Assembly: GCA_947184155.2 (NCBI GenBank)
Contig: CAMXCT020006744.1
Coordinates: 149,857-213,856, forward strand
DNA: 64,000 nt
Direction of reading: 5' to 3'
Source: Cladocopium goreaui
Lineage: Eukaryota; Sar; Dinophyceae; Suessiales; Symbiodiniaceae
Positions 8,899 to 63,978 of the stretch are shown piece by piece. Every line of letters starts with the position of its first letter. Within the stretch, counting starts at the first letter, position 1. The position numbers and the translations under genes are program-made. The notes beneath the pieces are model-generated. The model saw nothing but the letters and a program-made list of their open reading frames with translations, was not told the origin of the DNA and did not search any database.

Positions 8899-9026
8899 TG
8901 TAGAAATAGGCTAACAGTCACAACTAACCACAAATCCAGTACACCGCACTAGCGCTATTTCTTGAGCCAATGCAACACATGTTAGAGGTGAAACAGCTAT
9001 ATGTAGACTACTACTGTGCAACAACA
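8899..9026 (-). repeat. 3' LTR of element 1
   Basis: 128 bp, identical to 22995-23122, with TGTAG ... CAACA ends. On the sense strand it contains ATTGGCTCAAG, close to the 3' end of the dinoflagellate spliced leader. Confidence 0.95.
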
Positions 9027-22994: not shown

Positions 22995-23122
22995 TGTAGA
23001 AATAGGCTAACAGTCACAACTAACCACAAATCCAGTACACCGCACTAGCGCTATTTCTTGAGCCAATGCAACACATGTTAGAGGTGAAACAGCTATATGT
23101 AGACTACTACTGTGCAACAACA
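22995..23122 (-). repeat. 5' LTR of element 1
   Basis: 128 bp, identical to the left copy. An open frame enters it from the polyprotein, but the likely start codon is at 22912, inside the element. Confidence 0.95.
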
Positions 23123-40583: not shown

Positions 40584-40653
40584 CTGAGGCGACTGGCGGG
40601 TTGACATGTTGAGTACCGTATAAACTGGTGTGTGTATATATATATATATTTAC

Positions 40654-40860
40654 ATCTCAAAGTGACATATGAAGAACTCACCACGTCTTCCGCGCACAGC
40701 TCTTTTTCAACCACCTACCAAAGTTCAGTCTGTTTCACCTGCTCTCCTCAGGTTTGCTTTGGATGTGTCACAATGTGACTCGCACATAGCCCCAGACCGA
40801 ATCACCTCTGGTCAGCAACCTGTCACCGCAGGTTGGGACCTGCCTTTGCAGGTATCACCC
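40654..40860 (-). repeat. B2 terminal repeat
   Basis: About 207 bp, nearly identical to B1 at 41131-41338; the differences seen are near 40658, one base pair insertion near 40830 and a G/C change beside it. Confidence 0.85.
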
Positions 40861-41006
40861 GTCCCTTAACCTAAGGGAGGGAAGTTTCTTTTGGTCGCCC
40901 CAAAAGAGTATCCCCGAAAGAGGCTATGTACTCGCCTGCCATGCAGGCTCCCCTAACCTAGGCGGACATCTCCACGGGAGGTCGGCTCTTAGGGTTGGGA
41001 GGGTGG
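40861..41006. other. Sequence between B2 and A2
   Basis: 146 bp not repeated elsewhere in the window. It has short self-complementary pieces (CCTAACCTAGG, GCCTGCCATGCAGGC) and no coding frame. Confidence 0.5.
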
Positions 41007-41129
41007 GGAAAGAAACAGCAATGAATGCTATTTTGGCTCAGCTCCACTTGAGCCAAAATGAAAGCATTCATTGACTCACTTAAAGATGACACATGCACAC
41101 CCAAGCCTGCCAAACTCAATGCATGAATA
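41007..41129 (-). repeat. A2 repeat
   Basis: 123 bp, identical by eye to A1 at 49076-49198. It contains the spliced-leader-like hairpin at 41020-41072. Confidence 0.9.
41020..41072 (-). other. Large hairpin holding a spliced-leader-like sequence (A2 copy)
   Basis: Arms AATGAATGCT plus TTTTGGCTCA pair with TGAGCCAAAA plus AGCATTCATT around an 8-base loop, with a small bulge. On the minus strand one arm reads CATTTTGGCTCAAG, which matches 14 bases at the 3' end of the dinoflagellate spliced leader. Confidence 0.7.
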
Positions 41130-41130
41130 C

Positions 41131-41338
41131 ATCCCAAAGTGACATATGAAGAACTCACCACGTCTTCCGCGCACAGCTCTTTTTCAACCACCTACCAAAG
41201 TTCAGTCTGTTTCACCTGCTCTCCTCAGGTTTGCTTTGGATGTGTCACAATGTGACTCGCACATAGCCCCAGACCGAATCACCTCTGGTCAGCAACCTGG
41301 TCACCCCAGGTTGGGACCTGCCTTTGCAGGTATCACCC
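41131..41338 (-). repeat. B1 internal repeat
   Basis: Joins A2 after a single C at 41130. It ends in a small hairpin with stem AACCTGG/CCAGGTT and loop beginning TCAC (41294-41312). Confidence 0.85.
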
Positions 41339-41439
41339 AATGCACTCAAACACCCAAAGCACTAGAGGAATTCAAAGGTGAGAATGACTGCAACGAATGG
41401 CAACTGGAAAAAGATTGTGGGGAGGTACGACGAATGAAA

Positions 41440-41925
41440 GCTAGATCCATGGCAGCGCCACCAAGTCGTCGGCCCAGTTGCTCTTGCTCTGGACGTACTC
41501 CCAGTAGCCCTGGGCACGCAGTGCGAAGAGGGCCAAAGGAATCAGATGGCCTAGCTTTGCTAGGTCCGAATTGCTAGAACGTCCCCTCACTAAGGTCATG
41601 ACTGCAGCCACAGCGTCGAGGAACCATAGACCGTGTCGATGGCGGAGAAGGCCAGGGCTCTCACTCAAGGTGTAAATTACCATGGAGAGCTCCAACTGCG
41701 CAATGTGGGTCTCTGCAGGCTGCCACAGGAATTGTAGTTCTTCGCAATTGGTAGCAACAAAACTGTAAATTCACGTTTTGGCTCGAAACGCATCACTGCT
41801 TCGATCACCTCGAAGCATTCTTCAATCTCTGAAGTCAAGCTGGTGACACTCTCGTCCTGGCAAGCCTTCACTGCCATAAGGTCACCATAGCCAACTCGCC
41901 CATAGATGCCCTGCTCCTCAAGTTT
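41440..41925 (-). pseudogene. RNase H region, second (downstream) copy, broken
   Basis: In transcript order it reads GIYGRVGYGDLMAVKACQDE (about 41925-41860), an inserted or diverged stretch, then in another frame LLRHRHGLWFLDAVAAVMTL, VRGRSSNSDLAKLGHLIPLA and YWEYVQSKSNWADDL (about 41650-41455). FLD, AAVMTLVRGRS and N-W-A-D are the retroelement RNase H pattern I associate with dinoflagellate elements. It repeats the domain also present at 47776-48050, with about one-fifth of positions changed. The frame break and the array upstream make it non-functional. Confidence 0.55.
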
Positions 41926-44900
41926 CCCGAAGTAAGAGCACCCGTACTTGGAAGCTGAAATTCGCTTAAAAATTCGAGCCAGATTCATGGCAAGTGGAAG
42001 GCACCACCACGTAGGATCGCCCCCACGTGGGCCCCAAACCTGTCACAAAAGCAAGTAAGGCCACATCAAGTAGGATTGCCTCCGGCTTGAACCCAACCTG
42101 CTTACGACAGCAGAGGCCTACAGCCTTGTGGCCACTGCCTGGCAATGATCATGGGCAACCTGTGAACCTCAAGTAGCGTTCCCTCTACTTGGAACCTGGC
42201 TTGCTGGGGCAGGCAAAACTAACAGCCTCCAGCTCTGCTGAAAACGCAAACATGGGTGCCAGCAAGTAGGATGACCCCCACTTGGACTCCAAACCTGAAT
42301 CACTAAGGCAATAAGGCCACACCAAGCAGGATCATCTCCTCCTTGAAACCCAACCAGCTTAAGCCCACAGCCCTGTGGGCACTGCCTGGCAATGCCCATG
42401 GGCAACCTGTGAACCTCAAGTAGCGTTACCTCTACTTGGAAACCTGGCTTGCTGGGGCAGTCAAAACCAACAGCCTCCAGCTCTACTGAGAACGTTAAAA
42501 AAAAAGAAGAAAAAAAAAACGGGTGCCAACGAGTAGGACCCTCACTTGGACCCCAAACCTACGTCACTGAAGCCAAGCAGAATATTTCCTGCTTGAAACC
42601 CAAACGGCTTGAGACAGCAGAGGCCCATATCTGTGAGCGCACTGCCGACACCCAGCTTGCTTGGGGGAGTCAAAACCAACAGCAGCCCACGCTGCTGAGA
42701 TTGCAAAATCCAAGTTTCCAGAAGTAGGATCACCCCTACTTGGAAACTGAAATTCGCTGAAAATTCGAGCCATATTCATGGCAATTGCTAGGCACCCTCA
42801 GGTAGGATCACCCCCACTTGGATGCCGAACTTATGTCGCTAAAGCAAGTAGGGCTACACTAAGTAGGATTACCTCCTGCTTGAAACCCAACCAGCTTGAG
42901 ACAGCAGAGGCTTACAGCCCTGTGGTCACTGCCTGGCAGTGCCGGTGGGCAAGCTGTGACCCTCAAGTAGCGTTACCTCTACTTGGAAACCCAGCTTGCT
43001 CGGGAAAAGTCAAAAACCAACAGCCTCCAGTTTACTGAATGCTCAGAACCTCAGGTGTCCCGAAGTAGGAGCACCCGTATTTGGGAGCTGAAATTCGCTT
43101 AAAAAATTCGAGCCAGGCTCCTGGCGGGTGTTGGGTACCACCACGTAGGATTGACCCCACTCGGATCCCAAACCTATGTCACAAAAGCAAGTAAGGCTAC
43201 ATCAAGCAGGAGTGCCTCCTGCTTGTAACCCAACCTGCTTAAGACAGCAGAGGCCCACAGCCCTGTAGTCACTGCCTGGCAATGCCCATGGGCCACCTGT
43301 GATCCTCAAGTAGCGCTACCTCTACTTAGAAACCTAGCTTGCTGGGGGCAGTCAGAACCAATAGCCTCCAGCTCTGCTGAAACCGCAAAAATCCAAGTTT
43401 CCAGAAGTAGGAACACCCCTACTTGGAAACCGAAATTCGCTTAAAAACTGGCGCTACATTCATGGCGAGCAGGATCACCCCCACTAGGGCCCAAAACATA
43501 TGTCACTAAAGCAATAAGGTCACGCCAAGCAGGATTACCTCCTGCTTGAAACCCAACCTGCTTAAGACAGCAGAGGCCCACATCTCTGTGCTCACTGCCG
43601 CCACCCAGCTTGCTTGGGGAAGTCAAAACCAACAGCCCCCAGCTCTGCTGAAATTGCAAAAATCCAGTTTCCAGAAGTAGGATCACACCTATTTGGAAAC
43701 TGAAATTCGCTTAAACAATTCAAGCCATATTCATGGCAACAGCTGGGCACCCTCAGGTAGGATCACCCCTACTTGGACGCCGAACCTATGTCGCTAAAGG
43801 AATTAGGGCCACACCAAGTAGGATTGCCTCCTGCTTGGAACCCAACCTGCTCAAGACAGCCCTGTGGTCACTGCCTGGCAGGGTCGATGGGCAACCTGGG
43901 CTTCTCAAGTAGCGTTGCCTCTACTTGGGAACCCAGCCTGCTTGGGGCAGTCAAAACCAACAGCCTCCAGCTCTGTTGAAATTGCAAAAACAAACCATGT
44001 TTCCAGAAGTAGGATCACCCCTACTTGGAAACTCAAATTCGGTTGAACTTCAAGCCATATTCATGGCAAGTGTTGGGTACCCACCAGTAGGATCACCCCC
44101 AATTGGAAGGACCCTATGTCGCTAAAGCAATTAAGGCCACACCAAGTAGGATTGCCTCCTGCTTGGAACCCAACCTGCTTAAGACAGCAAAGGCCCACAC
44201 CCCTGTAGTCACTGCCTGGCAGTGTCGATGGGGAACCTGTGAGCCTCAAGTAGCGGTGCCTCGACTTGGAGACCTAGCTGGCTTGGGGCAGCCAAAATCA
44301 ACAGCCTTTAGCTCTGCGGAAATTGCAAGAATCCAGTTGCCAGAAGTAGGATTTCATAGCAGGTGTTGGGCACCCTCAAGTAGGACTACCCCCACTTGGA
44401 CCCAAAACCTATGCCACTAAAGCAATAAGGCCACACCAAGTAGGGTTACCTCCTGCGTGGAACCCAACCTGCTTAAGACAGCAGAGGCCCACAACCCTCT
44501 GGTCACTGCCTGGCAGTGTCGATGGGCAACCTGTGGCCTTCAAGTAGCGTCACCTCTACTTGGAAACCCAGCCTCCTGGAGGGAAGTCAGACCCAACAAC
44601 CTCCAATTCTGCTGAATTTGCAAAAAAAAACAAGTGCCCAGAAGTAGGATCACCCCTACTTGGTAGCTGAAATTCGCTTAAAAATCCGAGCCAGATTCAT
44701 GGCAAGTGCTGGGCACCAAAACGTAGGATCGCCCCCACTTGGACCCCAAAACTATGTCACGAAAGCAAGTGCGGCCACACCAAGTAGGATGACCTCCTGC
44801 TTGAAACCCAACCTGCTTAAGACAGCGGAGGCCCACAGCCCTGTGGTCACTCCCTGGCAGTGCCAGTGGGCAACCTGTAATCCCCAAGTAGCGTTACCTC

Positions 44901-47777
44901 TACTTGGAAGCCCAGCTTGCTTGGGGCAGTTAAAACCAACAGCCTCCAGCTCTGCTGAAATGCCAAAAAAAAAAGAAAGCAAGTTGCCCAGAAGTAGGAT
45001 CACCCCTACTTGGAAGCTGAAATTTCCTTAAAATTTCAAGCCATGTTCATGGCAGGTGTTGGGCACTCTCAAGTAGGACCACCCCCAACTTGGATCCAAA
45101 ACCTATGCCACTAAAGCAATAAGGCCACACCAAGTAGGGTTACCTCCTGCGTGGAACCCAACCTGCTTAAGACAGCAGAGGCCCACAACCCTCTGGTCAC
45201 TGCCTGGCAGTGTCGATGGGCAACCTGTGGCCTTCAAGTAGCGTCACCTCTACTTGGAAACCCAGCCTCCTGGAGGGAAGTCAGACCCAACAACCTCCAA
45301 TTCTGCTGAATTTGCAAAAAAAACAAGTGCCCAGAAGTAGGATCACCCCTACTTGGTAGCTGAAATTCGCTTAAAAATTCGAGCCAGATTCATGGCAAGT
45401 GCTGGGCACCAAAACGTAGGATCGCCCCCGCTTGGACCCCAAAACTATGTCACGAAAGCAAGTGCGGCCACACCAAGTAGGATTACCTCCTGCTTGAAAC
45501 CCAACCTGCTTAAGACAGCGGAGGCCCACAGCCCTGTGGTCACTCCCTGGCAGTGCCAGTGGGCAACCTGTGATCCCCAAGTAGCGTTACCTCTACTTGG
45601 AAGCCCAGCTTGCTTGGGGCAGTTAAAACCAACAGCCTCCAGCTCTGCTGAAAATGCCAAAAAAAACAAGTTGCCCAGAAGTAGGATCACCCCTACTTGG
45701 AAGCTGAAATTTCCTTAAAATTTCAAGCCATGTTCATGGCAGGTGTTGGGCACTCTCAAGTAGGACCACCCCCAACTTGGACCCAAAACCTATGCCATTA
45801 CAGCAATAAGGCCACACCAAGTAGGGCTACCTCCTGCTTGAAACCCAACCTGCTTAAGACAGCAAACGCCCACATTTCTGTGCGCACTGCCGACACTCAG
45901 CTTGCTTGGGGCAGTCAAAACCAACAGCCTCCAGCTCTGCTGAAAACGAAAACCTCCAAGTCTCCACAAGTAGGGTCACCCCTACTTGGAAACCAAAATT
46001 CACTTAAAAACTGACGCCACGTTCATGGCAAGTGTTGGGCACCAACGAGTAGGATCACCCCGACTTGGACCCAAAACAATTGTCACTAAAGCAAGTACGG
46101 CCACACCAAGCAGGATCACCACCTGCTGGAAACCCAACCTGCTTAAAACAGCAAGCGCCCACATTTTTGTGCGCACTGCCGACGCCCAGCTTGCTTAGGG
46201 CAGTCAAAACCAACAGCCTCCAGCTCTGCTGAAAACGAAAACCTCCAAGTTTCCACCAGTAGGGTCACCCCTACTTGAAAACCAAAATTCGCTTAAAAAC
46301 TGACGCCACGTTCATGGCAGGTGTTGGGCACCAACGAGTAGGATCACCCCCACTTGGGCCCAAAACATATGTCACTAAAGCAATAAGGTCACGCCAAGCA
46401 GGATTACCTCCTGCTTGAAACCCAACCTGCTTAAGACAGCAGAGGCCCACATCTCTGTGCTCACTGCCGCCACCCAGCTTGCTTGGGGAAGTCAAAACCA
46501 ACAGCCCCCAGCTCTGCTGAAATTGCAAAAATCCAGTTTCCAGAAGTAGGATCACCCCTATTTGGAAACTGAAATTTGCTTAAATTTCAAGCCATACTCA
46601 TGGCAACTGCTGGGCACCCTCAAGTGGGATAATCCCCACTTGGACGTCGGACCTATGTTGCTAGAGCAAGTAAGGCCACACCAAGTAGGATTACCTCCTG
46701 CTTGGAACCCAACCTGCTTAAGACAGCAGAGGCCCACAACCCTCTGGTCACTGCCTTGCAGTGTCGATGGGCAACCTGTGGCCTGCAAGTAGCGTCACCT
46801 CTACTTGGAAACCCAGCCTCCTGGAGGGAAGTCAGACCCAACAACCTCCAGTTCTGCTGAATTTGCAAAAAAAAACAAGTGCTCAGAAGTAGGATCACCC
46901 CTACTTGGTAGCTGAAATTCGCTTAAAAATTCGAGCCAGATTCATGGCAAGTGCTGGGCACCAAAACGTAGGATCGCCCCCACTTGGACCTCAAAACTAT
47001 GTCACGAAAGCAAGTGCGGCCACACCAAATAGGATTACCTCCTGCTTGAAACCCAACCTGCTTAAGACAGCGGAGGCCCACAGCCCTGTGTTCACTCCCT
47101 GGCAGTGCCAGTGGGCAACCTGTGATCCTCAAGTAGCGTTACCTCTACTTGGAAACCCAGCTTGCTTGGGGCAGTCAAAGTAACCAACAGCCTCCAGCTG
47201 CTGAAATGGCCAGAAACCAAGTTGCCCAGAAGCAGGATCACCCCTACTTGGAACTGAAATTGTTCTTAAAACTTCAAGCCATATTCATGGCAGGTGTTGG
47301 GCACCCTCAAGTAGGACCACCCCCACTTGGACCCAAACCCTATGCCCCTAAAGCAATACGGCCATACCAAGTAGGGTTACCTCCTGCTTGAAACCCAACC
47401 TACTTGAGAACGCAGAGGCCCACAGCCGTGTGGTCACTCCCCCTGTGGTCCAAGCAATACTCATGGCAAGTGTTGGGCGCCATCAAGGAGGATCACCCCC
47501 GCTTGGACCCCAATATATGTCACGAAAGCAAGTACGGCCACACCAAGCAGGATCACCTCCTGCTGGAAACCCAACCTGCTTAAAACAGCAAACGCCCACA
47601 TTTCTGTGCCCACTGCCGACACCCAGCTTGCTTGGGGAAGTCAAAACCAGCAGCAGCCAGCGCTGCTGAAATCGCAAATATCCAGGTTTCCAGAAGTAGG
47701 ATCACCCCTACTTGGAAACTGAAACTCGCTTAAAAAGTCAATTCATATGCATGGCAAGTGTTGGGAACCCTCAAGTG
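41918..47777. repeat. Tandem array of about 18-20 units (340 or 290 bp), rich in small hairpins
   Basis: The anchor TTCATGGCA or a close variant recurs at about 41985, 42774, 43449, 43728, 44056, 44352, 44696, 45051, 45388, 45732, 46020, 46310, 46591, 46938, 47283, 47460 and 47750. Spacing is about 340-355 in long units and 280-290 in short ones, which lack one hairpin block of about 55 bp. A long unit has four imperfect hairpins with stems such as AAGTAGG/CCTACTT and a loop ATCACC or ATTACC. The units are diverged, so the array is not very young. The repeated 70-120-residue open frames follow from the period and lack selection-like features. Confidence 0.9.
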
Positions 47778-49010
47778 CTGGGCACGCAGTGCAAACAGAG
47801 CCAAATGGATCAAATGGCCGAGCTTTGCTAACCCCGAATTGCTAGAGCGCCCTCTCACCAAGGTCATGACTGCGGCAACGTTGTCGAGGAACCAGAGACC
47901 ATGTCGATGTCGAAAAAGGTCGGGGCGCTCGATCAAGGCGCACAACACCATAGAGAGCTCCAGTTGCGTGCCTTGATGGCCATGAGACCGCCATACCCGA
48001 CTCGCCCAGAAATACCTTGCTCCAAGAAGATTGCAAGTCTATAAAGTTTGGAAGCTGTGCCTCGAGTAAAGTGGCCTGCTTGACGTGCTGTGGCAAGACA
48101 TCACGAACTTTGCCATGGAGTCTGGTGCGGGCCCAAAAACGAAGATGACCTGTCTTATTGATGCAACTCAGGTCATGGGTAAGTCCCAAAGAAGCGCCAG
48201 TGCTCTGCATGGTCTGCGTTTTGTCTTCCGCAAATAAAGATCCGATCATCAGGCATAGTTGTTTCATCGCCCATTGCCCGGAGCCCTTGGCAGAGCGGAC
48301 ATCAGTGATCGCGGCATTAAAGTACAGGGATGTCAAAACTTGGCAATACCAGCGAGTCAGCGCTTCCAACAGTCTGGGAAAATCAGTTGAACGAAGTGAT
48401 TGCCAGGGGGAGCCTAAACAAGAGGCCTGCATAGACCTGGGATACCGGAGTTTGCCACTCATCAGTGAAACCAGACGACAACGCAGCCTAAGCTCTCCTG
48501 CTGACATGGGGCAGTACCTGTAGGCAGACGGCAGGTCCTCTTAGCCTGTCTCCCAGGCATCATGGTGACAAAACTCGGCGACCTCGTCCTCAGACCAACG
48601 ACGCATAACCAGGCTTATGGGCGACTACATAGTGTAAGCATGTTGGCATCGGAAGAAAGGTCTGATTGCCCTCCGGTGTCACCGTTGTCGATGACTCGTT
48701 GTTTCCCCGAACTTTGGGTGGTCACACAGCGCAGGATAAGACGATGTGCCCGGCCGCCAATGTCCCTGAGGAACTCTGCTCGCCGCAGAGGAGGTGTACA
48801 AAAACCGTTTCTGGCGTCTTCCAAGAACTGCTGCAGCAAGAATGCATCGCTTCGCCACGTGCTGCTTGAACTCCAGGAACGCAGCAGCATGGAGGAGCGA
48901 CGCCTCGGTGGCCGCCGGGATATCGCTCCCACGAAGCTTACGCTGCATGCACGGTCTCCCCTTGCAACTACCAGGTCACCCCTTACGATGCTTGTAACCA
49001 ACCAGGTCAC
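47776..49010 (-). pseudogene. Reverse transcriptase and RNase H (upstream copy), inactivated
   Basis: In transcript order: about 49010-48615 includes SSGKQRVIDNGDTGGQSDLS, the fingers/palm start of a reverse transcriptase. About 48540-48480 has DLPSAYRYCPMSAGELR, motif A with its aspartate. About 48330 has TSLYFNAAITD where a YxDD box is expected, so both catalytic acids appear lost. About 48200-48080 has GASLGLTHDLS and FWARTRLHGKVRDVL, the thumb/connection. Then RHRHGLWFLDNVAAVMTLVR and LALFALRAQ of RNase H, which stops abruptly at the array border at 47777. Several frame changes separate the parts. The family resembles dinoflagellate RT/RNase H retroelements; closer class is unclear. Confidence 0.6.
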
Positions 49011-49075
49011 CCCTGGTTATTGATGTGGTGAGCCGCTCAATCAAGGTCTAGGAAGGTCACCCCTTACCAGGGCCA

Positions 49076-49198
49076 GGAAAGAAACAGCAATGAATGCTAT
49101 TTTGGCTCAGCTCCACTTGAGCCAAAATGAAAGCATTCATTGACTCACTTAAAGATGACACATGCACACCCAAGCCTGCCAAACTCAATGCATGAATA
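49076..49198 (-). repeat. A1 terminal repeat
   Basis: 123 bp copy of A2 at the presumed 5' end of the element. It includes the hairpin at 49089-49141 with the spliced-leader-like arm at 49116-49129. Confidence 0.9.
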
Positions 49199-49325
49199 TA
49201 TTTACTTATTTATTTATTATAATCATGATGATAATCATAATAATAATTAATAATAAATAAACAAAAACAAATAAACAAATAATAATAACAATGAGAAGAA
49301 GAAGAAGAAGAAATATAAATTGTAG
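49199..49325. repeat. AT-rich simple repeat
   Basis: TTTA, ATAATA, AAACAAAT and GAAGAA units border the element. Confidence 0.8.
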
Positions 49326-53904: not shown

Positions 53905-54058
53905 TGCGGACCACTGGTTAAAACTGATCCTACAGTTCCTGTGGCTCCCAACCAAACGCAAGAGACCCCTTTTTCTCTCACATGCTATTGGTTGGAGTTC
54001 CTGAGCCTAGAAGGTTCGGCGACCGTCAAATGGTCAAGGCAGTACGTTCAATTCTGCA
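53905..54058 (-). repeat. 3' LTR of element 2
   Basis: 154 bp, TGCGGACC ... ATTCTGCA, same as 61352-61505. On the sense strand the 20 bases before it are purine-rich (AGAGAGAAAATAGA) and contain the stop codon of the last ORF, so polypurine tract and coding end overlap. Confidence 0.95.
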
Positions 54059-54063
54059 CTGAT

Positions 54064-59000: not shown

Positions 59001-61315
59001 CCCATGGCCTGAGCTTGTTCTGCAAAACGTCCAGGGCAAAAGATTTCCATGATCTTGGGTTGTCGGTCTTCTCCATGTACTCGTAGAGCTTCCTGAATGT
59101 CGCGCATCAGCATCTTGCGCTGTTGAGCCTTCATGACTCCCCAATTCCCTTCAAACATGTCCTCATTGGTGTCCATGACTACCTCTGCGTCGTTCTTGTG
59201 GGTGTCGTCGGTGGTCACCATGTTCACGAAGGTAATGTCCGTAAGGTCGATCTCCTCAGACTTGAAGGGTGCAGCTCGTTGGGGATCAAAATCACAAAGA
59301 TTAATCTGGTACGAGCCGTTCTTTGGCTCATGGAGTGGTGCTTGGAGTCCAGCCTTGGTGAGGTGCATCGTGGATGTCACCAAATCAATGTGAGCTCCCA
59401 ATGCCTTGAGACATCGCTTGGAAATCAACAGTGGCACTTGTCCTGGCACCACGCTCACTCTCATCCGGAGCTGTCTGCCCTGGATGAAAATTGGTATCTC
59501 CACTCTTCCAATCGCCTCATCCACGCTGCCGTTTCCATAGCGGAAAACCTGCTTCTGGTTTGCCAGGTCAATGATCTTGATGTTCTTGGTCGCCAAAAGG
59601 TCTCGATGTCTTTGAAGTGTGTCAGCTCCAATGAGTCCACGTCCACATCCCGTGTCAACCACTCCAAAGCCAGGAGGATGAGTGAGACATGGTTGTTGCC
59701 CAGAGAATTGCATGTCATGCTCCTCACCTGATGAAGAGTCATCTCCGTCAGCTCGATGATCTCGTGGTCCTTCGGGGTCGTTCATGTTTGCATTTGGTTC
59801 CTGGGCCTTGAGCTGAACTTCTCTGAAAGCATCGGCGTAAGCCGCAATCGTCTCCTCGGTGGACGTGTCTTCTTGTAGGTCTACCCAATCTCCTGGGTCT
59901 GATCTCACTTGAAAAGCTTGTCCTCCATGATATTGTCGCATCAAATCCATCAACACCGCCGCCACACCGTCAATCTCCTCTTCCGTCTCCTCCTGCTCTG
60001 GTGACTCATAGATCACTGCCTTGTCCTTGTAGAAGATTGTCTCTCCGGTCCATTCATATCCGAGATCTCGGTGAGATTCTCCAGAATGTTTCCAATTGGC
60101 GGTGAAGACCTCGGTTGCTGATCTCCCGTCCTGACTGGGCTTCACCTTCGTCAATCTCGCGGTGCTCAGCTCCTCCACTGAGACAGGACATTGTGTCCTC
60201 ATGGGTGTGAAAAGGTTCCGTCGTGGGAGCACATGCACTCTGATCACCTGCTCATTCTCAGTCTTCCAGAAATCCTTGCGTCGATCAGCCCACTCGTTCA
60301 CCATGACGTCAATCTCGTGCTCGGTGACCTGGTCCGTCTCGTCATGCTCGATCATGTCGTACTCGTCGACGATGGACTGTGTCTTTGAATCGCTGGAAGA
60401 AGAAACCATATTCACAAAATTCACCTTCACGCCACTCTTTCCAGGGGAACTTGTAGAGCTGGAGCTGCCTCTCTTAGGACAATTTTTGCTGAAATGTCCC
60501 ACTGCTTTGCACTTGAAACATCGCACACGAGCTTCCAGCTTCTTCACATCCTGGCGAGTTGGAAAACCTCGACTCAGCTTCTCCTTGCTGATCTTGGCTC
60601 TTGTCTCCTTCCATGACAAGAGTACCTCGATGGCGTCCTGTTCATCTAAGGGCTCATTCTCCTCATCAGCCTCTTCCGTCGCCAATGCACCGTGCTCTTC
60701 GCCACTCTGGCTCTCCTCCACTTTGGTCACTGCATTCACCGACGACCTGGACTGATGGAGTCCCTCTGGGTACGTTGTTCTCAGGGCAGCCATGATGTCC
60801 TGTTCCTCGTATGATCTTCGGGCAGCAGCCAAAACTACTGCCTTCCGTTCTGGCGTCAGCTTCGCAAACCTCAGCACCATGTAGCCCTTGGCCACGGAAG
60901 GAAATCTGATCCCTTCTGCTTCCGCTGCTGAGAAAGCTGATCTCACTTTGCCTGTAAATGCTGCCGTGCTCTCATTTCTGTCCACCTTCAAATCAAAAAT
61001 TTGATCTAGAACTTCTCCCAAACGGTCATGTGATGCCTCCTCCGGGTACCTCTCGTCCAGCACCTGAAAGATCACATCTTGGCCTCCGGCAGTTTCGATG
61101 ATGTCCATGTCGGTGGCATCAAAAGCTCGGAGTGCCGGGCCGTCCAGTAGTGTGTACAGAACAGATCCAAAAGCATCTGCAGACATCCCTTTTGAGCCTT
61201 GGACCTTAAGATAGGCCCGAGCCCATCGCTTCCACTGCTTGTACTGCTTCGGGGGATTGTCACCATCACCAGCAAAGCGTCTCACCTGAGACTCACCTTT
61301 GGTGCCAGATTCCAT
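55961..61315 (-). CDS. Element 2 Gag-protease-methyltransferase-like-integrase-RT polyprotein (interrupted)
   Basis: 1,784 codons from ATG 61315, 36 bases inside the 5' LTR. Approximate residues: 1-200 Gag of the copia type; 263-279 one CCHC knuckle (CFKCKAVGHFSKNC); 545-640 aspartic protease (VVDTGCGRGLIG); 750-925 methyltransferase-like (KIMEIFCPGRFAEQAQ, TLDLSNGWDW, LLMCPPCGPLSPLQ); 998-1050 integrase zinc region (HNNLGHAS ... CPTC); 1060-1160 integrase core with D in GLDVKW, D in KFDAS and E in GEAHEQ; 1200-1330 integrase C-terminus; 1390-1560 Ser/Gln/Pro-rich; 1600-1784 reverse transcriptase to KPLYGLNDSPQGWF. The frame then closes at DPYGCSC just before the VDD box, which is in the next ORF. 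Compared with the usual copia spacing about a dozen residues are missing there, so deletion plus frameshift is likelier than programmed recoding. Confidence 0.9.
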   Translation of the reverse strand: MESGTKGESQVRRFAGDGDNPPKQYKQWKRWARAYLKVQGSKGMSADAFGSVLYTLLDGPALRAFDATDMDIIETAGGQDVIFQVLDERYPEEASHDRLGEVLDQIFDLKVDRNESTAAFTGKVRSAFSAAEAEGIRFPSVAKGYMVLRFAKLTPERKAVVLAAARRSYEEQDIMAALRTTYPEGLHQSRSSVNAVTKVEESQSGEEHGALATEEADEENEPLDEQDAIEVLLSWKETRAKISKEKLSRGFPTRQDVKKLEARVRCFKCKAVGHFSKNCPKRGSSSSTSSPGKSGVKVNFVNMVSSSSDSKTQSIVDEYDMIEHDETDQVTEHEIDVMVNEWADRRKDFWKTENEQVIRVHVLPRRNLFTPMRTQCPVSVEELSTARLTKVKPSQDGRSATEVFTANWKHSGESHRDLGYEWTGETIFYKDKAVIYESPEQEETEEEIDGVAAVLMDLMRQYHGGQAFQVRSDPGDWVDLQEDTSTEETIAAYADAFREVQLKAQEPNANMNDPEGPRDHRADGDDSSSGEEHDMQFSGQQPCLTHPPGFGVVDTGCGRGLIGADTLQRHRDLLATKNIKIIDLANQKQVFRYGNGSVDEAIGRVEIPIFIQGRQLRMRVSVVPGQVPLLISKRCLKALGAHIDLVTSTMHLTKAGLQAPLHEPKNGSYQINLCDFDPQRAAPFKSEEIDLTDITFVNMVTTDDTHKNDAEVVMDTNEDMFEGNWGVMKAQQRKMLMRDIQEALRVHGEDRQPKIMEIFCPGRFAEQAQAMGYQSVGTLDLSNGWDWSRDDHRRAAELLIDQAQPDLLLMCPPCGPLSPLQNLTPDHRRRDPQGHEQEVLQAKSMIRWCVKMARKQLAAGKHYLFESSKRAGTWSIPAMENFVKETNPAILEVSLCSLHLRCPESRRLYGKEWRFMTSSLGIATQLAPLHCQGGHEHQPVEGSSGGQLRSVQTQVYPKTLIRKILAGFHREEGCNLCFAVIEEQQKSDDTNLKESKRKIHQAIQKMHNNLGHASNSDLVRILRHAGAQDKVLDMVKQFSCPTCDARAEPKITRNSTVPKDVAPLRYVGLDVKWLPGFKTGERIKALNVVCRASGLQQMTPFRETESSEVIRKLYRQSWTRPYGRPKWLKFDASRCNLGQHFLDALERDGTTVLDVPGEAHEQIADVEVHGKHFEIMLSKVIDHMQPQNYDEWLECVDCTTEAKNSLLRRGGHSPYQLVLGQDPEFPGDDMLCPMSEPNVISNSTIIVDELAKFSQQARLEARKALLQELDQQAARTALNSRPRPHRSFKPGDEVAVWRRGRGIPGKRSHARWRGPGIVAGVNGNHYWVSMPGAMIKCSVEQLRFRTIEEGEADKFLVRDLRAAAVNLYPDVGGENRRQKHFLDITTEDIPPTKLLTETPPVIPEVQEGEQSSSSSSSSSSSSSSSGSTPSKPQEKTKNAPDTDSKPAGGEPQQVPSSGPQSIKSSGPQSISSSQSREEQIAQLSPQERELVRVSEERASRLDGHPQPSQRLPEPKRSKTESQQFGGRQLPPSLPAPPSRTHNVWHVQDSADQCVALSELDSDEGGFVLAVADGEVLLAGGRKEINVRNFEWKTEQGQEKIAKGMMKELTTVIQDKQALKPLSLAETAEIKRCCPDRILESRVVLTEKVEDSGNCIVKARWTARGDKDPDLFTLIREGRTQAPTISTNGRYTVLQTIASKRFTLQLGDVTGAFLEANNFNRKQRLFLRAPKNVPMPGYEEYELFEVIKPLYGLNDSPQGWFLTYRDTVKQQGWRQSRLDPYGCSC

Positions 61316-61335
61316 GGCAAAACCCTGCCCGTCCT

Positions 61336-61350
61336 AGGGCTCCGCTACCA
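61336..61350 (-). promoter_or_regulatory. Primer-binding site of element 2
   Basis: One base inside the 5' LTR the sense strand reads TGGTAGCGGAGCCCT, complementary to a tRNA 3' end finishing in CCA. It closely resembles the TGGTATCAGAGC site used with initiator methionine tRNA by many copia elements. Confidence 0.8.
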
Positions 61351-61351
61351 G

Positions 61352-61505
61352 TGCGGACCACTGGTTAAAACTGATCCTACAGTTCCTGTGGCTCCCAACC
61401 AAACGCAAGAGACCCCTTTTTCTCTCACATGCTATTGGTTGGAGTTCCTGAGCCTAGAAGGTTCGGCGACCGTCAAATGGTCAAGGCAGTACGTTCAATT
61501 CTGCA
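61352..61505 (-). repeat. 5' LTR of element 2
   Basis: 154 bp, identical by eye to the left LTR. Confidence 0.95.
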
Positions 61506-61510
61506 CAAAC
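61506..61510. repeat. Target-site duplication of element 2 (right)
   Basis: CAAAC, matching 53900-53904. Confidence 0.92.
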
Positions 61511-61769
61511 TGGATGATCCGCTCACCAAATGCACAGAGCACAAAAACAGAGAAAGTGGGATGGGAGGTACAGAAACACATCTTTGCCCTGAGCACGCAT
61601 ACATTGATGTGGCATAATATGTCAAACACAGACTACATCACAAAGCTCATTGTTGTGAAGAGACCGTTCTGCTGTTTCACATTGCTTCACCATTCCCGTT
61701 TCAAGAACAATCCTTTGTTGACCCCATTCGCATCCGCACCAAATTTTCCACAACCAAACACAAAATCAT

Positions 61770-63978
61770 GAAATGATGGAATTTGAAGCACCTTGAAAGC
61801 CTGCAAATAACTCTCCCAGTTTTGTGGACGCATCGATAATCCCAGGCACCATCTGCCAGCTTTCTGGAAGATCGTCACCTGGTCCTCCGCCAGTTCCAGG
61901 GCCCTCTGCCACAACAGCGTCTCCCCACAGCTGCCAGCCACTCCCTGGCGCGCAGCGATATCGGCCCGCAGCCCGGGCAGTCGTGCCAGGGCCTCCGCAG
62001 CACGTGCCCAGGGCACCGCGAGGCACAGAGAGCCCCAGGTGGCAGGGTCCAGACGGAGCCAACGGCGCTGCATCTCATCCTTGCGGGAAAATTGCTGGGA
62101 AGGGCTCAAAAGAAATTAGCAAGAAACCATATGAAACCCAAGAATGGTTCCGTTGTCAACAGGAAATTCTTCTCCCAAACCCAAAGTTGTGGGTGGTTCT
62201 AATGTGATACTACTGCAATAGTTGTATCATACCATTTCCTCTTCAAAAAGGTTCGATCACCGCAGCTTCCACCGAGAAACCAGGACATGAACTGCCCGCC
62301 ACCATGGAAGCTGGCCACAGCCTTGGATCGGAACCATTATATCAGCTGGTCACGATAAGGAGATATATACTGTACATGTATTCCTATTATTTTGATATTG
62401 CTATCACCCAATACCTATACCGCCTATGCCATCCAACTCATCCATAGTATATTTACTCGCTACATTGGCTCATTGTGGTGAAATCTGAAATGTAATGAAA
62501 TGTATAGGTATGTAAATATGATATGAATGGGCTGGAATCTAACATGGCCGAATACATGCAAAATGTCAACGAAGGCTAGGGATTTGAAAAAAAAATGTTT
62601 GGCGGATCGTTTTCCGACGGGAAAAAAATGTTGTGGATACAGTATACAGTTCCAAAAAATTGGGGCGCTGAAGGACGGGAAGGATTTTAAAAACGACTCA
62701 AGACATGAATCCATCAATCATGCCTCTAACTTGCAAGCGGACAACAGAAAGCAATCATGGGATATGAAGGGAATCAAAGGTGCTGGGGACAGTGTTGCGG
62801 AAATATTGTTGCAGCATGTTGCAGCTCTGTTCCCCCCACAGATCCATGCAACCCATGGCATTGTAGCTCACCCTGCTCAGCTGCAGCCCATTGGGCTCAT
62901 GGTTTTCTAGCCCCTGCAAGGCCCACGTCCAGACTTCACCACGAGCACAGGCCGTAACGACCTCCAGGTTTTGGGTCGGTTTGAGTCTAATGATGTCCAA
63001 TGATCTTGAAGCAAAGCAAATCTTAGTTGGGTAAATGCTCATGGTGCTTTAAACCCATTCTCCTCAAAAAACAATATATGATTGATATGTATTACATGGC
63101 CATTGCCAACCAAGTTCATCGAGGCTGTGAAGCAAAACAGGCTTGAAACCACCAGGACCAGGTGGCCAGAACACTCAAAAAGTCAAAACGAATAACGCAC
63201 GCTGAATCAAGTGCGGGTGACCGCATTCACGGAGATGATCTCTGGCTTGAATGCAGTTTCGGCATGAAGCTGGCAGAACCTGAGCAATGGCGGTCGCTGC
63301 GTTGAAAACGTCCGGACCTCGCTGACCTTTAGCCTCTGGCAATTTAACCTCGCATTGGAAACTCAACTAGTTATATCCACGAATGGATTATTTTCACATC
63401 AAAAGATTGGGGTGTTACATTGCCAATTTCATTACCGGACAACTTCTGCGCATCTCTCCCTGCTGAATGCAGAGTTTTGCGACTGTATCATACTGTATCT
63501 GCGCATAGTGGCCTGTAAGACCTGTAAGGCATATATCGTTCATCCAATCGACAGTGTATAGTGACTGGCACCGACCTGTACCCAAGCAACGTGTGAAGGG
63601 CTTCTGACCAATTGGGTCCAAAGGTTGAAAGAAGTGCGTTGTAGGTGGCCCTTGGCAGGTGGGAGTGCGGCTGCCAAATGGCAGAAAATGTCCTTTTCTG
63701 GGGCTTGCGCAGCTGAAACCAACAGATTTTTTTGAATGACTCTGCCCCATCCTTCTTTTAAATTGAAGACTAGAGCGCCTTCTAAAAGCCAACAGCCCCA
63801 TCTTCGGCCACGGCTTCATCATGTCACAGCTAAGAGTCATGGAGATTCTCATCCGCGCCACACTGAAGTCCTGCACCATGGCCAGAGCTGTCTGCCACGC
63901 GGCCGCTTCAGCGCAGGCACTGACAGCTGCAGTGGCAGTGACCACTGTCGCTTGCAGCTGCAACCTCCCGTCAGCCAT
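61770..63978 (-). CDS. PPR-repeat protein gene, upstream exons
   Basis: Minus-strand exons in transcript order: about 63978-63810 ([20 protein letters not shown] then ALAMVQDF), 63350-63200 ([20 protein letters not shown]), 62975-62840 ([20 protein letters not shown], then LSRVSYNAM) and 62090-61800 ([20 protein letters not shown] then [20 protein letters not shown] and [12 protein letters not shown]). The alternation of A-x-S/A-AC and W-x-x-AL helices is the PPR pattern. The gene probably begins outside the window on the right and continues past element 2 to about 51750. That element 2 lies in its intron is inferred from PPR exons of the same strand on both sides. Confidence 0.6.
62110..62839. 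other. Probable PPR intron
   Basis: No exon seen between the two PPR exons; ordinary sequence with AT-rich patches. Confidence 0.35.

Follow-up and report, generated by a model that had tools for sequence, protein, structure and literature searches.

Retroelements of the DIRS type have been described in the dinoflagellate genus Symbiodinium, where the repeats follow the order A-coding-B-A-B and the reverse transcriptase (RT) aligns poorly with Pfam (PMC5890265). Split-direct-repeat elements more generally show an A-B-A-B order, as outlined for PAT and Ngaro (PMC4157794). We analysed a 64,000-nucleotide stretch of the dinoflagellate Cladocopium goreaui (contig CAMXCT020006744.1; the whole stretch is called the window below), in which an element of DIRS-like layout holds a dense tandem array of small hairpins within a dead RT gene. 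DIRS integration makes no target-site duplication and leaves a shared core at the junctions, and tandem satellite arrays are carried and amplified within transposable elements. We consider it somewhat better than an even bet (probability roughly 0.55) that the array is a passenger, a higher-order tandem satellite that originated within the dead RT gene of a DIRS-like, non-autonomous element and has been copied along with this element. The direct-repeat layout, the position of the array between overlapping pieces of the dead gene, the junction shared with relatives and the hairpin-bearing repeat unit carry this reading.

The window element resembles SymbioDIRS and other DIRS elements of Symbiodinium (PMC5890265) in its A-coding-B-A-B repeats, its apparent RT, divergent from RVT_1, and its dinoflagellate host. 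It differs from them in that the RT is dead and a hairpin array of 5.9 kb lies within its gene, and neither a recombinase nor a methyltransferase was found in those of its open reading frames (ORFs) that were scanned. Because no recombinase was found and the RT is dead, the element is termed DIRS-like and non-autonomous and is not filed as a DIRS member. The words "hairpin", "tandem repeat" and "satellite" are absent from the main text of PMC5890265. The element shares the order A1-B1-A2-B2 with PAT and Ngaro as outlined in PMC4157794, but a recombinase was not found here and an X segment lies between A2 and B2. Like satellite-bearing transposable elements, it contains tandem units amplified with the element; unlike them, each unit repeats one hairpin several times, and on average the hairpin arms are better kept than the spacers. 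Short repeated palindromes or hairpins are also reported from the organelle genomes of the algae Volvox and Lobosphaera (PMC2670323, PMC4524435), whereas here they form a tandem array in one retroelement, in DNA that also holds copia-like elements. Among the literature matches listed, no title or abstract opening described hairpin satellites inside DIRS-like elements.

A DIRS-like layout around a dead RT gene

Self-comparison of the window places the element on the minus strand in the order P-body-R-P-X-R (Table 1), that is, as two interleaved direct-repeat pairs. A conventional long terminal repeat (LTR) retrotransposon was rejected, since such an element has one terminal pair. The order R1-X-P, read by eye, is retained in the relatives P0083 and P0087. 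In P0087, the order R-X-P-R-body, likewise read by eye, is kept at 57% identity over 61% of the query; a relative so divergent with the same order indicates that the layout is older than the window copy and is no chance dimer. At its three junctions the element shows ATT-TA-CATCTC, CATGAA-TA-CATCCC and CATGAA-TA-TATTTAC, with TA in common between CATGAA and CATCYC ends, which would fit insertion of a circle with a two-base TA core.

The B2 end abuts TA-rich repeats at 40610-40650, and by eye the P0083 ORF implies the same on its own contig; it is possible that the element prefers TA microsatellites as sites. Each P repeat carries an inverted pair, ATTTTGGCTCA...TGAGCCAAAAT (41030-41059 and 49099-49128). 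The minus strand of the P repeats reads CATTTTGGCTCAAG, which equals the dinoflagellate spliced leader over its final 14 bases; P0087 does not keep this match. The element layout and the spliced-leader match both point to a dinoflagellate host, the match weakly so because P0087 lacks it.

The coding remnants lie in two pieces that overlap (41510-41700 against 47778-47968, 80.6%), with the array between them. The scanned ORFs of the window element had no Pfam match, and RVT_1 was matched in five of eight relatives scanned (E up to 0.1), all below the Pfam cut-off, the best being P0041 (E=2.7e-5). A search with the 221-amino-acid (aa) open stretch listed 56 proteins, of which three are labelled as belonging to the window itself; 25 of the 56, the window's own included, are full-length at at least 96% identity. 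The window's own 221-aa sequence occurs on 78 contigs, among which may be re-assemblies of one locus.

The junction between gene and array is also found in relatives. P0034 and P0036 show the same end residues across it as the window, and P0079 crosses it on the other strand, as read by eye; these lie on contigs of 91,662, 586,047 and 634,729 bases, respectively. Since relatives share the junction, the array was in the element before the element spread or was duplicated, and it travels with the element. There are 24 relatives of the array ORF, and their contigs have 21 different lengths. A KEDHPYL variant in five of the 24 was considered as an uncompensated stem change and not counted, because the corresponding window frame contains a stop codon, so that gene callers see just such copies. 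No homologous DNA was found in viral contigs by four patterns, and two protein scans gave no relative. Bacterial genomes gave seven single matches to a degenerate 22-mer, where simple arithmetic predicts about 7.5 by chance.

Units and hairpins of the array

The array is built of head-to-tail units that are themselves composed of sub-repeats, as in a higher-order tandem satellite. Tandem Repeats Finder gives three rows over it, with periods of 343, 289 and 176. A consensus scan recovers four hairpin types per unit at recurring spacings of about 79, 60, 104 and 100 bp; the four hairpins per unit claimed by the first-pass annotation are therefore present in the long units, but the units of about 289 bp lack hairpin C. 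The same annotation had called the array hairpin-dense, and it contains 34 perfect inverted repeats (stem of at least 7, loop of 3-8) against a mean of 2.3 and a maximum of 6 in 30 first-order Markov sequences, a count in which about four hairpins enter many times over, once per copy. All six hairpins that had been quoted lie where they were reported. The array stems among them are the best-paired variants of their types: type D has an A.C mismatch at pair 6 in 13 of 16 copies, and type B a T.G at pair 5 in 12 of 18.

One unit was folded and compared with 100 dinucleotide shuffles. The unit at 44991-45333 folds better than the shuffles as DNA (z -4.4) and as plus-strand RNA (z -3.1), and less clearly as minus-strand RNA (z -2.1, with 4 of 100 shuffles equally good). 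Local duplication has occurred recently, with 44353-45187 and 45046-45874 being 96.9% identical. A single monomer of about 86 bp behind all four hairpins was rejected, as only the downstream flanks of B and C are clearly homologous (none of 400 and then none of 2000 shuffles as good). The upstream flanks of D and C were matched by 4 of 400 shuffles but by 478 of 2000 with shorter flanks, the downstream flanks of A and B by 49 of 2000, and the remaining flank pairs are not clearly homologous. Derivation of the unit from elsewhere in the window was also rejected, the longest match outside the array being 13 bp.

On its plus strand, the array is enriched in A and C. Its AT skew (0.185-0.197 at 42001-48000) is the highest among the 2-kb steps of the window, and its GC skew (-0.14 to -0.16) is equalled elsewhere in the window only at 60001-62000 (-0.166). 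Where array and dead gene meet, at 41918-41930 and 47765-47790, there are short sequences also present in the units, at the right edge CAAGTGCTGGGCAC as read by eye; both joins resemble microhomology joining.

Table 1. Coordinates of the element, its repeats and gene remnants, and the hairpins discussed
Feature	Position	Strand	Remarks
Host element, DIRS-like layout A-body-B-A-X-B	40651..49201	-	Self-comparison; ends good to within a few bases
Terminal repeat A1 ("P"), 126 bp	49076..49201	-	99.2% identical to 41007-41132; hairpin 49099-49128
Internal repeat A2 ("P")	41007..41132	-	Self-comparison; hairpin 41030-41059
Internal repeat B1 ("R2"), 211 bp	41128..41338	-	98.6% identical to 40651-40860; abuts A2
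Terminal repeat B2 ("R1")	40651..40860	-	Self-comparison; hairpin 40816-40835, loop TCACCG
X segment between A2 and B2	40861..41006	-	Hairpins 40862-40878 and 40887-40907 (loop TCGCC)
Dead RT gene, upstream part	47776..49016	-	Contains a 221-aa open stretch (47842-48507) that also occurs on many contigs
Dead RT/RNase H gene, downstream part	41441..41940	-	Resembles protein relatives P0045 and P0046 by eye; no Pfam match
Hairpin tandem array	41918..47777	+	Units of about 343 bp, some about 289; order A-D-B-C
Typical unit, 343 bp	44991..45333	+	Hairpins A 44991-45012, D 45070-45092, B 45131-45153, C 45235-45256
Hairpin type A, example	44641..44662	+	AAGTAGG-ATCACC-CCTACTT
Hairpin type B, perfect variant	43526..43548	+	CAAGCAGG-ATTACCT-CCTGCTTG
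Hairpin type D, fully paired variant	46621..46642	+	CAAGTGGG-ATAATC-CCCACTTG
Hairpin type D, CCACGT...ACGTGG	42007..42030	+	A-T replaced by C-G, the only two-sided Watson-Crick change counted
Element hairpin outside the array	49000..49018	+	AACCAGG-TCACC-CCTGGTT
B1 hairpin	41294-41312		AACCTGG-TCACC-CCAGGTT

Pairing in the stems and hairpins outside the array

The first-pass annotation had stated that the stems change in step, and that such paired changes mean that the structure was kept. The covariation test it called for, made on the array modules, gave no excess of paired changes over shuffles, and on a tree built from the spacers one-sided changes dominate. The pair counts were made on 62 modules, 16 of type A, 16 of D, 18 of B and 12 of C; D 45070 and D 45757 (insertion), D 42527 (deletion), B 42574 and a truncated A near 44344 were omitted, and D 43466 was additionally omitted from the tree. 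In A, D and C together (44 modules, 30 distinct), two pairs show two-sided change against 0.8 +/- 0.8 in shuffles, a value reached in 82 of 500, and the covariation score was equalled or exceeded in 499 of 500. Type D taken singly (16 modules, 15 distinct) also shows two such pairs, against 1.5 in shuffles, of which 226 of 500 reach two; type B (18 modules, 14 distinct) shows none. The two pairs are the same in both counts, pair 3 (C-G, 42008) and pair 6 (G-C, 46621), and the G-C at D pair 6 takes one change only, because the common state there is the A.C mismatch. In each of the three counts more cells are paired in the true register than in slid ones; this says only that hairpins exist.

The tree was made from spacers alone, and the stem pairs were reconstructed on it by least change. 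It yields 31 inferred changes: 22 leave a Watson-Crick pair, six restore one and three pass between unpaired or wobble states. Eight of the 22 go to G.T, which still pairs in plus-strand RNA. Nine changes start from an unpaired or wobble state, and six of them restore pairing; arithmetic gives about two in six for a random one-base change. With so few events, this is a weak hint of repair or selection. Wobbles that would favour one strand occur as five G.T and five A.C state types, and as eight G.T and four A.C tree events, and there is no clear strand bias. As paired changes do not exceed chance, the ground that had been given for a selected structure, stems changing in step, falls away. Compensatory changes beyond those expected from phylogeny and composition, by which a conserved structured RNA is recognized, were not found in the array stems, and a selected structure in the array is not established by paired changes.

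No described RNA family was matched among Rfam families at E up to 1. It was considered whether the array is a source of small RNAs, its hairpins serving as Dicer substrates. Many short tandem hairpins would suit such a role, but stems of 7-8 bp fall far below known Dicer substrates, which are far longer, and, with the Rfam result, this makes the explanation very improbable.

The TCACC loop core recurs with other stems in the host element, at 41294-41312 and 49000-49018, as the first-pass annotation had noted. A census of hairpins with at least two G/C per arm, in which TCACC was sought in the loop plus two flanking bases, found it at stems of at least 7 in four of eight hairpins of the element outside the array, whereas the window beyond the element has 31 such hairpins and none with TCACC (Fisher p 0.0009; p 0.004 when the duplicate R copies count as one). 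Among the four, the hairpin at 41797 falls in former coding sequence and could be a chance occurrence. The corresponding counts are 4/14 against 2/109 at stems of at least 6, and 8/31 against 9/369 at stems of at least 5. Within the window, to which the test of spreading hairpin modules was limited, TCACC hairpins with stems of at least 7 thus occur in this element alone, in parts outside the array as well; elsewhere such hairpins appear only with the shorter stems.

Over their length of about 211 bp, R1 and R2 have three differences. One is located a few bases from the outer end; the other two fall within one hairpin (40816-40835 and 41293-41313), where an inserted G and a G-to-C change together add a pair. 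These coupled changes look like one template-switch event. It is conceivable, if rather improbable, that template switching during replication of the DNA (quasi-palindrome correction) creates and refreshes the hairpins in general, so that paired changes, where they occur, would be mutational and not selected. Two of the three R1/R2 differences are coupled in one hairpin, as this would predict, and the mechanism has precedent in RNA genes, for which it is documented as outlined in PMC8794818. Template switching is nevertheless expected to leave perfect arms and frequent two-sided changes, whereas the array stems show mostly uncorrected one-sided ones.

Arm conservation, competing explanations and a proposed course of events

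Several observations weigh against a passive passenger satellite of a DIRS-like element. Of the 15 A-to-A spans, 12 were aligned and those of 792, 635 and 464 bp omitted; the stem arms (60 columns) have a mean pairwise identity of 0.921, the loops (27) of 0.831 and the spacers (253) of 0.818. The arms are thus better kept than the rest of the unit, except in hairpin D: identity per hairpin is 0.923 for A, 0.889 for B, 0.946 for C and 0.816 for D, which is no better than the spacers. When the stem mask was slid round the unit, none of 342 positions matched the arm excess, which speaks against passive drift alone; one of 342 reached the excess observed for a whole-hairpin mask. Paired cells in A, D and C are slightly raised (82.1% against 81.0% in shuffles, reached in 30 of 500). 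The terminal-repeat hairpins differ in behaviour from the array: in P0087, two compensatory pairs are forced by the codons, C-G to T-A at 49106/49121 and A-T to G-C at 41295/41311, too few to test. The six element ORFs that were scanned gave no Pfam match to a tyrosine recombinase. The AlphaFold model of an RT relative was uninformative (mean pLDDT 40.8), and solved structures gave two insignificant matches only. Finally, the longest flank match of the element is a 10-bp ATATATTTAC at both ends, which could be a target-site duplication.

The arm conservation could result from constraint on the arm sequence or from gene conversion, for which a full unit offers eight similar arms. It bears on whether the hairpins are cis-acting signals of the element, bound as RNA or single-stranded cDNA by an element or host protein, with the array multiplying the signal and selection keeping the arms. 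Such a role would account for the arm excess, the folding of the unit as DNA and plus-strand RNA, the recurrence of TCACC hairpins at stems of at least 7 in the element, the two P0087 pairs and the six restoring changes. However, the array stems do not covary and most inferred changes leave Watson-Crick pairing; with A.C the commonest D state and T.G the commonest B state, neither strand is consistently favoured. Hairpin D is no better kept than the spacers, and the loop, which the first-pass annotation had called fixed, is not fixed and varies like the spacers: ATCACC is exact in 10 of 16 type A and 7 of 16 type D hairpins, and the loops of B and C are longer (7 and 8 nt). Among the terminal hairpins, base 49123 is changed, with an ambiguous partner; A41294 is changed to T with its partner unchanged in P0085, P0086 and R1 of P0087; and, by eye, the loop there differs in P0088 and the stem is weaker in P0089. 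A cis-acting role is therefore possible but unlikely.

A more specific version is still more doubtful: that a GG-TCACC-CC hairpin module of about 22-27 nt multiplies in one DIRS-like element as a recognition site for reverse transcription or integration. Each unit would then contain the module at four places, although clear homology of the flanks is limited to B and C, and the module would recur with other stems elsewhere in the element; the array would be a built-up cluster of sites.

The ATATATTTAC match raises the question of whether the host element is instead LINE-like, or another retroelement, and entered the site as a partial tandem dimer that produced a target-site duplication of 10 bp. 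The presence of the match at both ends and the lack of a tyrosine recombinase match in the six ORFs are in keeping with this, but the flanks are low-complexity TA/TTTA DNA in which such a match may come easily. The divergent P0087 keeps the R-X-P-R order and the three junctions share TA, as circle integration predicts, so that we regard a dimer as an unlikely, though not negligible, alternative.

If the array is a passenger satellite, the element may have lost its gene, after which a short palindrome-bearing stretch inside it would have been tandemly amplified. The starting point of the hairpins may have been short palindromes with the TCACC loop seen elsewhere in the element, to which template switching could have given rise. 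Transcription would run from A1 to B2 on the minus strand, a partner element would supply reverse transcription, and circular cDNA would insert at a TA core, so that element copies would carry the array to new sites, where unequal crossing-over could add or remove units. Most present hairpin variation would be unselected as structure. The arms may stay alike because their shared sequence, with eight arms per full unit, favours gene conversion, or because something binds them.

The window also contains two LTR elements. The first has 128-bp LTRs (8899-9026 and 22995-23122) that are 100% identical and a minus-strand ORF of 3896 aa with a weak, below-cut-off match to a copia-type RT (RVT_2). The second has 155-bp LTRs (53905-54059 and 61352-61506), also 100% identical, and a 1784-aa ORF with a zinc knuckle. 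Both look recently inserted.

The significance of the array depends on what keeps its arms alike. If the arms are kept because they are bound, the array would mark a binding site of a poorly understood retroelement machinery. If they are not bound, it would be a clean case of hairpins that recur by amplification and look covarying until tested.

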